Positions 4,618 to 34,204 of a stretch of DNA of 34,204 nt are shown here, piece by piece. The DNA comes from a virus. A program made the position numbers and the translations under genes. The stretch's first letter is position 1. Each line of letters starts with the position of its first letter. The stretch covers positions 1 to 34,204 of the IMG/VR virus record IMGVR_UViG_3300009124_000049, one strand, 5' to 3'. The notes below the pieces were generated by a model. That model ran no database searches. It saw only the letters and a program-made list of their open reading frames with translations, and was not told where the DNA came from.

Positions 4618-4681
4618 GATTCCGCGGAAAAACAGAGGAAAGGCGCTGGACGTAGCCGATGGATGCGCTACTGTAACACCC
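4618..4681 (+). promoter_or_regulatory. Duplicated 64-bp promoter, copy 2 (leaderless)
   Basis: Second copy of the 2474-2537 element, starting directly after the upstream TAG stop. It has -35-like TGGACG at 4647-4652, a 16-nt spacer and -10 TACTGT at 4669-4674, with the ATG 7 nt later at 4682. The upstream palindrome is perfect here (TTCCGCGGAA, 4620-4629). Differences from copy 1 cluster in the spacer, while the upstream 40 bp are nearly invariant, as expected if a protein binds there. Confidence 0.7.
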
Positions 4682-4924
4682 ATGGAAAGCACCCAACTCA
4701 ACGCCCGCGCGATGCGCGCGGCGGTCTCTAAGATCCCGGCGCAGATCGACGCCATCAGCCGCACGCTCGAGGAGTATCTCGGCAGCTACCCGTTCGACAT
4801 TGACACGCCGGACAACCTCATCAACGAGGTCATCGACGGGCACTCCGAGGCGCAGCAACTCCTCGACAAGCTCGCCGCGACGGTTGCGGCGCTGCCGCAG
4901 ATGCCGCAGGGGGGTGTGGCGTGA
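4682..4924 (+). CDS. Small helical protein before the ERF gene (80 aa)
   Basis: An 80-residue helical protein with no recognised domain; a central FDIDTPDNLINEVIDGHSEA stretch joins two helices. It is the first gene behind promoter copy 2 and has no Shine-Dalgarno sequence, as expected for a leaderless message. Its stop overlaps the GTG start of the ERF gene (GTGA). It could be a partner of the annealing protein, since small helical proteins often precede phage recombinases, but there is no motif to support a specific role. Confidence 0.6.
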   Translation: MESTQLNARAMRAAVSKIPAQIDAISRTLEEYLGSYPFDIDTPDNLINEVIDGHSEAQQLLDKLAATVAALPQMPQGGVA

Positions 4925-28878: not shown

Positions 28879-31107
28879 ATGCCCACCGCGCAGAAGCCGG
28901 TCGTCAAGCTGGGCGGCGTCGAGCTCGCCGCGACGTCCGGCATTGCGTGGCGATTCATCAGCGGCGTCGCGCCCTACACGACCACCATGAGCGTCCACAA
29001 GACGCGCTGGGATCGTCTGCAGGGCAAGCTAGGCAAGCCGCTCACGCTAGAGATCACGGACAGCCGGGCGGTCAAGACCACCATCGAGCAGGTCTACATC
29101 CTGCACCTTGCACCTAGCGACAGCCCGCACCGTGTTTCTTTCGTCGTCGCCGACAAGCGTTGGCTGTGGCCCTACAAGCTCGTCGCGCGTGACTTCAACA
29201 TGCCTCGCAAGACGGGCGACCGGAACGCTCTGGGCGAGGCCGTGCCGGTCGAGCTGCAGCAGTTCGTCGATGAATACGACTATCTGCCCTACAGCCTGCA
29301 GCCGCAGCGCACGAAGTGGACCGCACAGACCGCGCTGGAGGCCGTGCTCGAGCTCGTCGACAGCGATGGCTGGCAGGTCGAGAGCTGGCCCATCAAAGAC
29401 ACGACGGGGCAAGGCGACAGCGGGCAGTTCAGCTTGCAAGGCGTCACGCTGCGCGACAGCGGCGACGTCGCGCTGCAGCGTCTGATCAGCTACATCCCCG
29501 GCGCGGCGATCTACGTCAACGAGAAAGGGCAGACCGTAGTCTTCGACGCAAGCGATCTGGACGCTACGGAAGAACACTTCCGGCAGCTCCCAGTCGGCAC
29601 CTACGCCGGCGAGCGCGGCGCGTGGATCGACCGCAAAGCTATCCGGCCTAGCAAGGTGATCGTCCACTACCAGAAAGAGGTCGAGGTGCTCCTCGAGTTC
29701 GAGGACGACTACAGCGGCGGCACCAGTTCGCAGCCGGTCGCGAACGATCTATACGTCGACAACGTCATACCGACGACAGACCCCGAGACGACCATCACGG
29801 AGTTCGATCCGGGGCAGGGTCGGACGGTGACGAAGAAGGTGCCCCCTGGCACGTTCGTCCGCGTCGACAACTGGCTGAACGCCATGGACGCCGACCGGCC
29901 TGAAGGATCGTTGCCGTGGACGTGGGACACCGTCAAGATCCACTGGTTCAAGGGCGACCTCGATGCGGTCTGGGTCCGCGGCAAAGACCTAGACCCCGAG
30001 GGCAACGCCGCGATGCGGCTGCAGGCATTCCGCCAGCACTTCCGGCAGACGTTCCGGCTCAACCGCCGATACATGGAGCGCATCCGCAACCTGCGCCCGA
30101 TCCGCGTCGCGCTGCTTGATCCGGTGACGGGCGCGCGCGCGCCGGCGGCGGTCTGGGGGCAGGGCTGTATCGTGCCCAGCAGCAAGGGGCAGCTCATGGC
30201 GAAGCGAGGCGACGACAGCGTGGCCGGTAGCAAATACCTGCGCAACGTCGACTACCTCAACCCCTACTACGCGCAGAACGTGCCGCTGTTGAAATCGCGA
30301 CCCGGACCGCAGCGCGTCAACATCGTCGACGAGGAGCTCGGCGTGTTTCGCCTCGAGTGGATCGTCAGCCCCTACGGCATCGTCGACAGCTTTCTGCCGT
30401 GCAAGCTCGTCAACGAAAACAACGAGGACGGCATCAGCATCAGCCGCGATCTGAAGTATCAGGAAGACGAGCCGATGGGCGCAGGCATGATCATCGAGGG
30501 CGGGACGAATGGCATATTCCTCGACGACAGCCTTGAGTGGAAAGCGATCCTCACCGCGGTTCCGTCGTCGCCGAACACGCGGCAGCAGTTCCACCAGATC
30601 GAGGTCGAGGCCACGGACATTCAGAGCTTGTTCCAGCGGGAGTTTCGCATCAAGGACGGCGACGGCCCGCCGCTCGAGGTCTTTGTCAGTCCGGGCGAGG
30701 TGACGGCGCGCTTTGGAATCACGGACGCGGCCGAGGCATACCAGACGCAGCAGCTACTGTTCGGCCTCGTGAACCCTGAGCCGGGCGAGGAGCCCGAGGA
30801 GCTACCCGGCTACACGATCATCAACGAACAGCGCGAGCTCACGCCTCATGCCCGGAGCCTAGCGGCCGAGGTCATTGCTCCGTTTGCCGACAACGTGCAG
30901 GGCATTATCAACACCAGCATCCCGCGCGACGGCGTCAAGCTCGTCGGCAACATGACCAGCGCGACGGTCCGCGTGGGCGCTGCTCCGGCCGCGCGCGTCG
31001 ACGCCATGCACGAGTTCCCTGGGCAGCAGCGTAGTATCCCGAGGCACGCGCTCATGCCAGAGAGTGCGCGTCAGCTGATTCTAGGTATCGTCCCCTTCAA
31101 GGCATGA
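28879..31107 (+). CDS. Baseplate hub-like tail protein (742 aa)
   Basis: A 742-residue protein. The first 400 residues have the general build of phage hub proteins (Mu gp44, T4 gp27-like, late control gpD): two beta domains (GVELAATSGIAWRFISG; VYILHLAPSDSPHRVSFVVA) and a helical-beta segment GDVALQRLISYIPGAAIYVN with EKGQTVVFDASDLDA. The rest forms a tail module with no recognised enzyme motif; I see no lysozyme. It would sit at the tip of the tail, carrying the fibre encoded next. The fibre gene starts inside its last codons (ATGA). Confidence 0.6.
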   Translation: MPTAQKPVVKLGGVELAATSGIAWRFISGVAPYTTTMSVHKTRWDRLQGKLGKPLTLEITDSRAVKTTIEQVYILHLAPSDSPHRVSFVVADKRWLWPYKLVARDFNMPRKTGDRNALGEAVPVELQQFVDEYDYLPYSLQPQRTKWTAQTALEAVLELVDSDGWQVESWPIKDTTGQGDSGQFSLQGVTLRDSGDVALQRLISYIPGAAIYVNEKGQTVVFDASDLDATEEHFRQLPVGTYAGERGAWIDRKAIRPSKVIVHYQKEVEVLLEFEDDYSGGTSSQPVANDLYVDNVIPTTDPETTITEFDPGQGRTVTKKVPPGTFVRVDNWLNAMDADRPEGSLPWTWDTVKIHWFKGDLDAVWVRGKDLDPEGNAAMRLQAFRQHFRQTFRLNRRYMERIRNLRPIRVALLDPVTGARAPAAVWGQGCIVPSSKGQLMAKRGDDSVAGSKYLRNVDYLNPYYAQNVPLLKSRPGPQRVNIVDEELGVFRLEWIVSPYGIVDSFLPCKLVNENNEDGISISRDLKYQEDEPMGAGMIIEGGTNGIFLDDSLEWKAILTAVPSSPNTRQQFHQIEVEATDIQSLFQREFRIKDGDGPPLEVFVSPGEVTARFGITDAAEAYQTQQLLFGLVNPEPGEEPEELPGYTIINEQRELTPHARSLAAEVIAPFADNVQGIINTSIPRDGVKLVGNMTSATVRVGAAPAARVDAMHEFPGQQRSIPRHALMPESARQLILGIVPFKA

Positions 31108-34100
31108 CGAGCTTTACCGACTTCACCGACCTCGGCTTCTTCCCGCTGCAAGACCACGCGGCGGCGCAGGATGGCACGCCGATCAGCCGGCGCATGATGC
31201 TGGCCGGCGGGCGCATCATCCAGATGACGGACCCCGGCACGGCGGCGACGGCGGCCGATGCGCAGATCCGCTACGGCCGCGAGCACGGCCTGGGCACACT
31301 CGGCGACGTCCACCCGTGGATGTTCTGGCAGACCCGCGAGCGCGCGGTCCGCGGCATGGGCTCATGGGCGCAATCGTTCGCGTCGGTGGCCGTCGACGCA
31401 GACCCCTACTACGGCAGCATCAACGCGCAGCCGATTCGCGACCGGGCATTCCAGAACGACACCCGATACCGGCCGCTCGACGCCGCGTGGCCGGCGGGCT
31501 TCCAACGTGTTCCACGTGGAACACTGCTGACCGTCATGCCCGGCACCGAGGAGTCAGGGCAGCAGGCCGTGGCAATGTGGGCCGATCCGAGACTGGTCGC
31601 GCCGAACGCTGCCGGACCGGGCGAATGCGGCACGCTGGTCGTCGACCTGGGGCCGGACCGCGAGCTGTGCATGGACGGCAGCGACACGCCGGGCATCGGC
31701 GGCCGTCATGCGCGGCTGCAGAGCCTCCTGCGCGTCATCCCCGTCCCGCCGAACCAATCATTCGCCGATCTGGGCGGCCGTGGCAACACGCTCGCGCTCA
31801 ACTTCTCGACGTCGGGCAAAGACAACATCCCCAACTTCGGAGCGTTCTGGGCGCGCACAGCCGGCGGTGGAGGTGGCGGCCCGACGACTGGCGGCGGCGG
31901 CCCGATCACCGGCGGCCCGAGCTCGTCGACTCCCAGCGGACCCATCACCGGCGTCCCCAGCAGCGGTACCGACGGCCCGAACCGCAGCACGTTTGGCACG
32001 CTACAGGTCGGCGGCGGCGCATTCGGTGCCGGCGTCGATGCCGGAGAGGACGAGAAGCAGCCCAAGGACTATGGGCAGTTCGGGCAAAACTTCGTCGGCG
32101 GCCACGCTGTCGCGCTCATGTCGTCGATCGGCGGCGACGGTCCGTTGCATGCTGGCAGTAATAACGACAAGCACCGGCACGGCACAGATCGCGACGGGCA
32201 CCCGATCAACGCCGCGCACATCAGCACGTCGGCCTACTTCTACCAGAACGAAAGCCAGGACGCGCCGATTGAGTTTGGCGGTGGCTACCCGAACCCGGAG
32301 CCTCTGCCGATCCCTGCGCCGGCGCACCTGAGCTACGACGCCGGCAGCATCCACGGATTCAGCCGCGGGCTGAGGAGCGGCCTGTGGCGCTTCTGGTGCG
32401 AGACGCCGGACATTAGCCCACCGCCGGATATTCCATACGATCCGCCCCCTGGGTATCCGGGGCCGCCGGGGCCTCCGGGGCCTCCTGGGCCTCCTGGGCC
32501 GCCAGGACCGCCAGGGCCTCCTGGGCCACCGGGCGGACCTACGACCGGCCGACCGGGCGGACCTACGACGGGCGGACCTAATCGACCCAACCGAACGCCG
32601 GGAGACACGGTGCCGACGACGCCGACCTATGGTCGGCCGATCACGCCTAACCCAGGCGGCAAGCGGTTCCCTGGTTATCCGTCCACAGGACCAACGACCG
32701 GACCGATGACCGGACCCGGCACTGGCGGCACGCCGGCGGGACCGACCACAGGCGGCGGCGGCGGGCAGCCATCGGTCCCGTGCAAGACCAACCCCATCAC
32801 GCCCGGACCTAGCAGCGGCCCGACTACCGGAGGGCCTCGAGGCCCTAGCGATCAGGTGCCGCCCGGCCAGCGATCGCAGCCGGTCTGGACGCCTCGAGGC
32901 CGCGGCATTGGCGGCGGTCGCGGCACCGTCCCAGGCGGCGGCGAGCAGCGAAGCGAACGCTCGACGATGATGCCGACCGGCGCGGCCATCTTCGGATTCG
33001 GTGGCAGCCACATCCTGCCGCTATCGGGCAGTCTCGGAGGACGAGGCGACCAAGGCACGCGCGGGCAGGACGTGCGCACGAACCTGATGCGGCTGTCTGG
33101 GCGTAACCCGTTCAACAACGAGCCGCACGTCATCTCCGGCGTCAGCGAGCGCATCGGCAGCGCGACGCGCGAAGACCAACAGCTCTACACGCTGTTCAGG
33201 CCGATGGCGCAAGGATTCGCGTCGATCAACTTCCGGCCGCAACTGACCATCAACGGGTTCCCCAACTTCGAGCACAACCCGCAGATGCCGCTGTCGATGT
33301 ATCTCAACGACGAGCGCACGCGGCCTCAGGTGCTGACGATGCGCGCGTGGGGAGCTCAGAGCGCATCGGATTCGGACTGGCGATACGTGCAGCAGCCGAG
33401 CGGCAGCCGAGCTCGAGGCGGAACCGGCGACGGCGGCATATTGCTCGCGCCGCCGCGGTTCGAGCTGTCGGACTACTACGGCATCGGCGGCGACGTCATG
33501 GACGTCACCGACACGACGAGCGCGCAGGCGACGGCGAACCACGTCCTGCACGCGCCCGGCGTGAGTCTGAGCTACGGCCTACCCAACGCCAACGGCAGCC
33601 TGCAGCTTGGCAGCTCGAGCACGACCTACGGCGGCACCACGCAGCCGCAACTGACCCGCGTGCATACGAGCTCCGGCACGGTCAACGCTTGGACGTTGAA
33701 CTACAACAGCACCGGAGACGAGGTAGTGGTGGCGTTCGGCCAGACGCAGGCCGTGCAGATCCCATCGGGAACGACGGCACAACGGCCCAGCAGCATCGCG
33801 CCGGCGGCCGGCATGATCCGGTTCAACACGACCAACACTGAGGCCGAGGTCTACAACGGCAGCTCGTGGTCGGCGCTTGGCGGCGTCAGCGGATCGCTGG
33901 TCAGTCTTGGACTGACGGCATCGGCCGAGCGCCTGATCGGCAACACACAGATCGCCGACGGCAACCTTGAAGAGATCAGCCTCGACGCCACGCTCGAGTT
34001 CAACCCGAGCGGCGTGACGCTAGGAATCGCAGGCAAGAGCCTGGGCGCTTCACAGATCGCTGACGGTTCGATCACGGACGCGCTCCTCGCATCCGGCGGG

Positions 34101-34204
34101 CAATACCACGGAGCCTACAACACCGAAGCAGAGACCCAGCGCAGCGGCGCGACCGCGACGACGGAGATCTACTACACGGCGCGACCGGACGGCGACGGCT
34201 ACGC
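31104..34204 (+). CDS. Collagen-like tail fibre, 3' end beyond the window
   Basis: The frame from ATG 31104 stays open to the last base, more than 1,030 codons. In order: a beta-rich N-terminal part (1-250) that would attach to the hub; Gly-Pro-Thr low-complexity (about 255-300); a His/Asp/Asn-rich segment (GSNNDKHRHGTDRDGHP) around residue 355; a collagen-like Gly-Pro-Pro tract (450-476); more Gly/Thr/Pro repeats (to about 620); a beta-structured region; and the fibre motif AGMIRFNTTNTEAEVYNGSS from about 902. The last motif is widespread in phage receptor-binding fibres. It overlaps the hub gene stop by 4 nt. A parS-like palindrome lies at 31507-31524. Confidence 0.85.
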   Translation, partial: MTSFTDFTDLGFFPLQDHAAAQDGTPISRRMMLAGGRIIQMTDPGTAATAADAQIRYGREHGLGTLGDVHPWMFWQTRERAVRGMGSWAQSFASVAVDADPYYGSINAQPIRDRAFQNDTRYRPLDAAWPAGFQRVPRGTLLTVMPGTEESGQQAVAMWADPRLVAPNAAGPGECGTLVVDLGPDRELCMDGSDTPGIGGRHARLQSLLRVIPVPPNQSFADLGGRGNTLALNFSTSGKDNIPNFGAFWARTAGGGGGGPTTGGGGPITGGPSSSTPSGPITGVPSSGTDGPNRSTFGTLQVGGGAFGAGVDAGEDEKQPKDYGQFGQNFVGGHAVALMSSIGGDGPLHAGSNNDKHRHGTDRDGHPINAAHISTSAYFYQNESQDAPIEFGGGYPNPEPLPIPAPAHLSYDAGSIHGFSRGLRSGLWRFWCETPDISPPPDIPYDPPPGYPGPPGPPGPPGPPGPPGPPGPPGPPGGPTTGRPGGPTTGGPNRPNRTPGDTVPTTPTYGRPITPNPGGKRFPGYPSTGPTTGPMTGPGTGGTPAGPTTGGGGGQPSVPCKTNPITPGPSSGPTTGGPRGPSDQVPPGQRSQPVWTPRGRGIGGGRGTVPGGGEQRSERSTMMPTGAAIFGFGGSHILPLSGSLGGRGDQGTRGQDVRTNLMRLSGRNPFNNEPHVISGVSERIGSATREDQQLYTLFRPMAQGFASINFRPQLTINGFPNFEHNPQMPLSMYLNDERTRPQVLTMRAWGAQSASDSDWRYVQQPSGSRARGGTGDGGILLAPPRFELSDYYGIGGDVMDVTDTTSAQATANHVLHAPGVSLSYGLPNANGSLQLGSSSTTYGGTTQPQLTRVHTSSGTVNAWTLNYNSTGDEVVVAFGQTQAVQIPSGTTAQRPSSIAPAAGMIRFNTTNTEAEVYNGSSWSALGGVSGSLVSLGLTASAERLIGNTQIADGNLEEISLDATLEFNPSGVTLGIAGKSLGASQIADGSITDALLASGGQYHGAYNTEAETQRSGATATTEIYYTARPDGDGY
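31507..31524. promoter_or_regulatory. parS: parS-like ParB-binding palindrome inside the fibre gene
   Basis: GTGTTCCACGTGGAACAC is a perfect 18-bp palindrome. The inner 16 bases (31508-31523) match the bacterial chromosomal parS core, GTT-N-CACGTG-N-AAC with flanking T and A. Across it, seven successive codons (CAA CGT GTT CCA CGT GGA ACA) end in A or T, whereas codons on both sides end mostly in G or C. That suggests the DNA, not the peptide, is conserved. No parB gene lies in the window, so host ParB would be the reader. Confidence 0.6.
32451..32531 (+). repeat. Collagen-like Gly-X-Pro repeat in the fibre
   Basis: Nine codon triplets encode one Gly-Tyr-Pro then eight Gly-Pro-Pro. The triplets use mixed Gly and Pro codons (GGG, GGA, CCG, CCT, CCA), so the array is not a recent exact expansion. 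Gly-Pro-Pro repeats form a collagen triple helix, giving a thin rigid stalk in trimeric phage fibres. Confidence 0.9.

Follow-up and report, generated by a model that had tools for sequence, protein, structure and literature searches.

An exact host-type parS sequence in a virion gene of a tailed phage: a recent lineage-specific gain as judged by sequence comparison

In most bacteria, parS serves as the DNA address tag for chromosome segregation. The virulent phage phi29, which has no par genes of its own, reportedly uses the host ParB (Spo0J) for the movement of its genome, in the form of entrapment in spores. ParB is loaded at parS in a CTP-dependent manner and then spreads (PMC12704722). 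The parS consensus is TGTTTCACGTGAAACA (Livny et al. 2007, as cited in PMC7383237), and the ParB of Pseudomonas aeruginosa prefers the half-sites GTTCCAC and GTTTCAC (PMC10419367). The phage-plasmids P1 and N15 and cyanophage Mic1 (PMC7156551) also carry parS on a phage genome, but these phages encode their own ParA/ParB and use a cognate, often divergent parS. The mobile element SGI1 carries parS-like sites for the ParB of another replicon and is stabilised thereby (PMC10954446).

Here, we describe a parS sequence in a 34,204-nt linear fragment that constitutes an entire IMG/VR record (hereafter, the window). An 18-bp perfect palindrome, GTGTTCCACGTGGAACAC, is visible by sequence inspection at positions 31507–31524, and it includes the 16-mer TGTTCCACGTGGAACA at 31508–31523. 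The 16-mer shows no mismatch to the parS consensus TGTTYCACGTGRAACA and is, by sequence, an exact host-type parS. The coordinates and sequence of this palindrome, and its fit to parS, had been given correctly in a first-pass annotation of the window. A whole-window scan for further copies, as that annotation had proposed, yielded one additional site at ≤3 mismatches, which has 3 mismatches, and shuffled sequences contained on average 0.07 matches at this threshold. The only other 18-bp palindrome in the window, at 10816–10833, is entirely G/C-rich.

Like the parS sites of chromosomal ParABS systems, the site in the window is a 16-bp palindrome that matches exactly, given the C/T degeneracy found in nature, and has two perfect GTTCCAC half-sites; unlike them, it is phage-borne, single and located in a late coding gene, in a record without ParA/ParB. 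The likeness to phi29 lies in the presence of a host-type parS on phage DNA, in the case of the window a fragment, in which no par genes are found. However, the window phage is unrelated to phi29, has a high G+C content and a single site, and has no known link to sporulation. In contrast to the sites of P1, N15 and Mic1, that of the window is of the host chromosomal type. SGI1 differs from the window in that its target is the ParABS of an IncC plasmid and in that an integrative mobilizable element, and not a virion gene, carries the sites.

The gene set of the window is that of an ordinary tailed phage and includes genes for O-like and DnaC-like replication proteins, an Erf-like annealing protein, a helicase/methyltransferase, RusA, TerS, TerL, portal, head proteins and virion proteins. 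ParB_N (PF02195), parB_part (TIGR00180) and ParA-type AAA_31 (PF13614) domains were all absent from the 34,204-nt record, which is a fragment; a par gene or additional par sites may lie in the rest of the genome. The earlier statement that no ParB is encoded therefore holds for this fragment, and a self-encoded ParABS of the phage-plasmid type, comprising parA and parB, is not present on it. PF00589 integrases were found neither in the window nor in its relatives, and searches for relatives of the window among isolated phages (DNA or protein) and in bacterial genomes found none. The window also contains 74-nt direct repeats (91% identical) at 2474–2547 and 4618–4691, each running into an ATG, which probably represent a duplicated leader or promoter segment.

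A parS inside a structural gene of a phage had been regarded as unusual in the first-pass annotation, a view that the database counts do not support, because exact parS, in many cases intragenic, is present in hundreds of phage records. In IMG/VR, TGTTCCACGTGGAACA and TGTTTCACGTGAAACA each have at least 120 exact matches, whereas control palindromes of similar make-up match 2, 1, 10 and 1 stretches. Among isolated phages (INPHARED), the C, T and mixed variants of parS match 58, 286 and 147 records, respectively, and three control palindromes match 0, 0 and 0. Thus, parS is over-represented in phages relative to matched palindromes in both collections. One of the controls, TGTACCACGTGGTACA, is likewise translated as VPRGT in the reading frame used by the window and is nearly absent (1 match in IMG/VR and 0 in isolates), so the peptide is not the cause of the enrichment, and an explanation of the abundance of parS by peptide or codon usage was rejected. 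Contamination by host chromosomes, considered as a source of the IMG/VR matches, cannot account for the matches in isolates. The records are partly redundant, the isolates including series of related Listeria and Arthrobacter phages; however, the 120 listed IMG/VR loci still form 84 groups, and redundancy alone therefore does not explain the IMG/VR count. A comparison that avoids ascertainment bias agrees: contigs selected because they carry a given parS variant were found to hold 9 and 21 further sites of the other variants, whereas the controls averaged 0 and 0.33. Conservation within parS-bearing phage protein families was left out as evidence, because the members had been picked for having parS. 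In one contig (L243), which has a T variant, the mixed variant also occurs 11 times within about 5 kb; these copies possibly form a centromere array. Within the limited collection of literature that was searched, we came across no description of phages with a chromosomal-type parS but no parB. Orphan parS in phages is a known kind of site, apparently under-recognised, to which the window adds one more case; the enrichment is evidence that parS is retained by phages at large and does not reveal the role of the copy in the window.

The best-represented hosts of the isolates with parS are Pseudomonas, Listeria, Microbacterium, Arthrobacter, Gordonia and Bacillus, which are genera with ParABS, and Lactobacillus. 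Escherichia and Salmonella, whose phages are among the most sequenced, are missing among the top host names. An exception to this host pattern is found in Klebsiella phages, of which 10 records, mostly RaK2-like, carry TGTTCCACGTGGAACA; Enterobacterales are not known to have chromosomal ParABS. No match to the TIGR00180 ParB was detected in 49 of 50 parS-bearing contigs, many of which are fragments. Similarly, none of 17 parS-bearing isolates had a ParB above the curated cut-off, 2 of them giving weaker partial matches. A host-type parS on a genome without a ParB of its own, as seen in the window (a fragment), is therefore also the situation in most of the tested isolates. Because many phages carry parS without ParB, they probably borrow that of the host.

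Among the matches listed, the C and T variants account for 87 coding sites in 62 protein groups (ORFs of ≥200 aa), and most coding copies have the reading phase in which xVPRGT or xVSRET is encoded; they are often found in linkers of low complexity or disordered structure. The RVPRGT of the window shares the preferred xVPRGT frame. One marine phage protein family has both C and T variants. In the phi29-like phages of Bacillus subtilis (∼19 kb), two exact parS sites are present in B103 and four in BSTP4, a phage of the phi29 species; the two sites examined in these phages are coding and stand in an xVSRET/xVSRGT frame, in the same phase as in the window. In the genus Kochitakasuvirus (KPP25 and R18), the position of parS is shared, next to the gene for the major head or structural protein. 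Pseudomonas phage phiPsa374 carries parS in its direct terminal repeat and Vibrio phage phi 3 in its terminal repeat, so that both ends of each virion genome have the site. Many carriers, such as P100-like Listeria phages, phi29-like phages and KPP25, look lytic; therefore, partition during lysogeny is not the general benefit.

We consider it fairly probable (roughly 0.6) that the host-type parS lets the phage DNA use host ParB for its positioning or retention, without par genes of its own. This reading is favoured because of the analogy with phi29, in which the reported involvement of Spo0J in spore entrapment offers a precedent. In a host with chromosomal ParABS, host ParB would bind to the phage parS, close as a CTP clamp and spread on the phage DNA, which it would couple to host ParA and probably also to SMC. 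The phage DNA would in this way be tethered to the nucleoid and be positioned, or shared between daughter cells, in slow, dormant or carrier-state infections. No phage par gene would be needed, and the site was written into a coding gene almost wholly by synonymous changes. Binding and spreading of host ParB, and a benefit from positioning, would be expected in the window phage by analogy with the described systems.

The main rival to positioning is that the sequence is a real ParB-binding site used offensively, either titrating ParB (and SMC) from the host origin and thereby stalling segregation or division, or modulating the transcription of nearby late genes through ParB spreading. Such titration accounts for the lytic carriers and for parS copies that are often single and lie anywhere in the genome, coding sequences included, and the parS mimics of SGI1 indeed both stabilise SGI1 and destabilise its helper plasmid (PMC10954446). 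However, one site per genome would be a weak sponge before the copy number is high, and we regard an offensive use as unlikely, if worth keeping in mind.

The gene that carries the site (31104–34202, plus strand; open at its 3′ end) encodes a virion or tail protein, the C-terminal part of which matches PHROGs of phage virion structural and unknown proteins. The protein has a conserved N-terminal domain of ∼250 aa followed by a collagen-like, Gly-Pro-rich linker; a collagen-like Gly-Pro-Pro repeat is encoded at 32444–32533. Codons ending in A or T make up 18% of this ORF, but all seven codons at the parS site (CAA CGT GTT CCA CGT GGA ACA, encoding Q R V P R G T; 31503–31523, plus strand) end in A or T, which confirms the earlier description of seven consecutive A/T-ending codons in a gene of G/C-ending codons. 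Runs of at least seven such codons are expected 0.026 times across the listed ORFs, and the few other long runs that exist are in ORFs with a doubtful start or frame. Given the peptide RVPRGT, the probability of the six parS codons under the codon usage of the phage itself is ∼7e-8.

Relatives of the N-terminal domain are encoded on 12 IMG/VR contigs. The four close relatives (84–87% aa identity, two of the four being near-identical to each other) read CGTGCCTCGAGGCGCG (CGC GTG CCT CGA GGC GCG), after CAG, at the homologous position and keep the peptide RVPRG(A); more distant relatives have other codons, mostly G/C-ending, or different residues at the site. An exact parS was found nowhere in the 12 related records. 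The nearest parS-like sequence, TGTTGCACGTGGAACT in G058, has one mismatch to the looser consensus TGTTNCACGTGNAACA; this weak site in a distant relative sits in a head gene. The closest relatives without the site reach 96% aa identity in TerL, and the site is therefore dispensable to the group. Relatives thus keep the VPRG peptide without the palindrome, which is literally the pattern that the first-pass annotation had said would refute its proposal, and the site is not conserved. Three distinct relatives (L122–L125) share an identical eight-codon run, in which the six codons above are followed by CTG CTG; it contains a shorter palindrome, GCCTCGAGGC, centred as the parS of the window is, and eight-codon identity runs among the relatives occur at other places too.

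In the tree, the window lineage is nested within the group without the site, and the palindrome is therefore derived. Among 1,477 aligned codons from three genes (∼4.4 kb), we defined a codon as window-private if it was identical in the three close relatives but different in the window; such codons account for 8.7% of the total. All six parS codons are private, and CAA, the seventh codon of the tract, is likewise not shared with any of these three relatives. The parS tract is the densest private cluster in the 1,477 codons; elsewhere in the window lineage, no more than 4 of 7 consecutive codons are private, and the three other lineages, when taken as focal, have maxima of 3–4 per 7. When private codons were shuffled among the agreeing positions, a run of six arose anywhere in 0.12% of shuffles (permutation P = 0.0012), a value that is descriptive because the tract was chosen before the test. 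Stronger evidence is that the changes arrived at parS exactly. Within the 16-mer, the window differs from the shared sequence of the relatives by exactly seven bases, all of which are changes to the parS base found in the window only. Only one residue is altered: at a position where Ala is encoded by the VPRG-bearing relatives, the window has Thr (GCG to ACA), and six of the seven differences keep the residue or share the codon with this replacement. The changes are confined to 31505–31523, and the flanking codons are the same as in L122. The codon alignment thus gave no third-position conservation across relatives, which had been suggested as the signature of selection, but revealed instead a clustered gain directed to parS. 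By this comparison, the parS of the window is a recent, clustered and lineage-specific gain, which was probably selected; the pattern of change points to such a gain rather than to an absence of function.

Chance, in the sense that codon drift in the VPRG-encoding stretch made a parS that was noticed because the motif is famous, is disfavoured by these data. The relatives lack the site, and the peptide PRG already gives CCNCGNGG, half of the core palindrome, both of which are as drift would have it. However, the likelihood of the codon set (∼7e-8), the clustering of the private changes (P about 0.001) and the scarcity of the VPRGT-encoding control (1 match in IMG/VR and 0 in isolates, vs at least 120 and 58 for TGTTCCACGTGGAACA) make such an origin improbable, and the earlier judgement that selection on the DNA is likely is thereby supported.

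It is also very improbable that a single templated mutational event, such as a template switch or microconversion, replaced a tract of 19–21 bp in the absence of selection for parS: the confinement of all changes to 31505–31523 between codons identical to those of L122 and the pre-existing, identically centred GCCTCGAGGC in the relatives suit it, but a blind event is not expected to produce the 16-bp parS exactly and at the same time leave six of seven residues as they were, and the donor would have to be parS itself. As to the number of steps, the sequence data fit both a single templated event and several selected steps.

An operator for another DNA-binding protein, for instance a repressor of the phage or a ParB-like protein whose gene lies beyond the fragment, has a similarly slim chance: perfect dyads are typical of operators, the record is incomplete, and two relatives (G001 and G003) encode a ParB_N–DNA methyltransferase fusion between rusA and terS, but these two lack the palindrome, whereas the palindrome-bearing window, from which the fusion is absent, goes directly from rusA to terS, the site is a single copy inside a late gene, and the joint enrichment of all three parS variants (C, T and mixed) fits the known ParB/parS degeneracy and not an unrelated operator. 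The ParB_N proteins of the relatives were likewise rejected as the cognate binder, as they are methyltransferase fusions present where the palindrome is absent.

Within a group of closely related phages, the window appears to offer a rare view of how a putative protein-binding site came to be written into a coding sequence. The chances seem evenly divided that phages whose hosts span many phyla make general use of orphan parS to capture the host segregation protein, by a strategy in which sites in virion genes are synonymously written in a preferred frame (VPRGT/VSRET) and are quickly gained and lost between close relatives, one such gain having been caught in the window. If host ParB is indeed loaded onto phage genomes at orphan parS, ParABS and SMC would be host factors of infection in many bacteria, beyond phi29 and sporulating Bacillus, and the phages that use them would be predictable from sequence. 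A few synonymous changes would abolish the parS and leave the virion protein unaltered.
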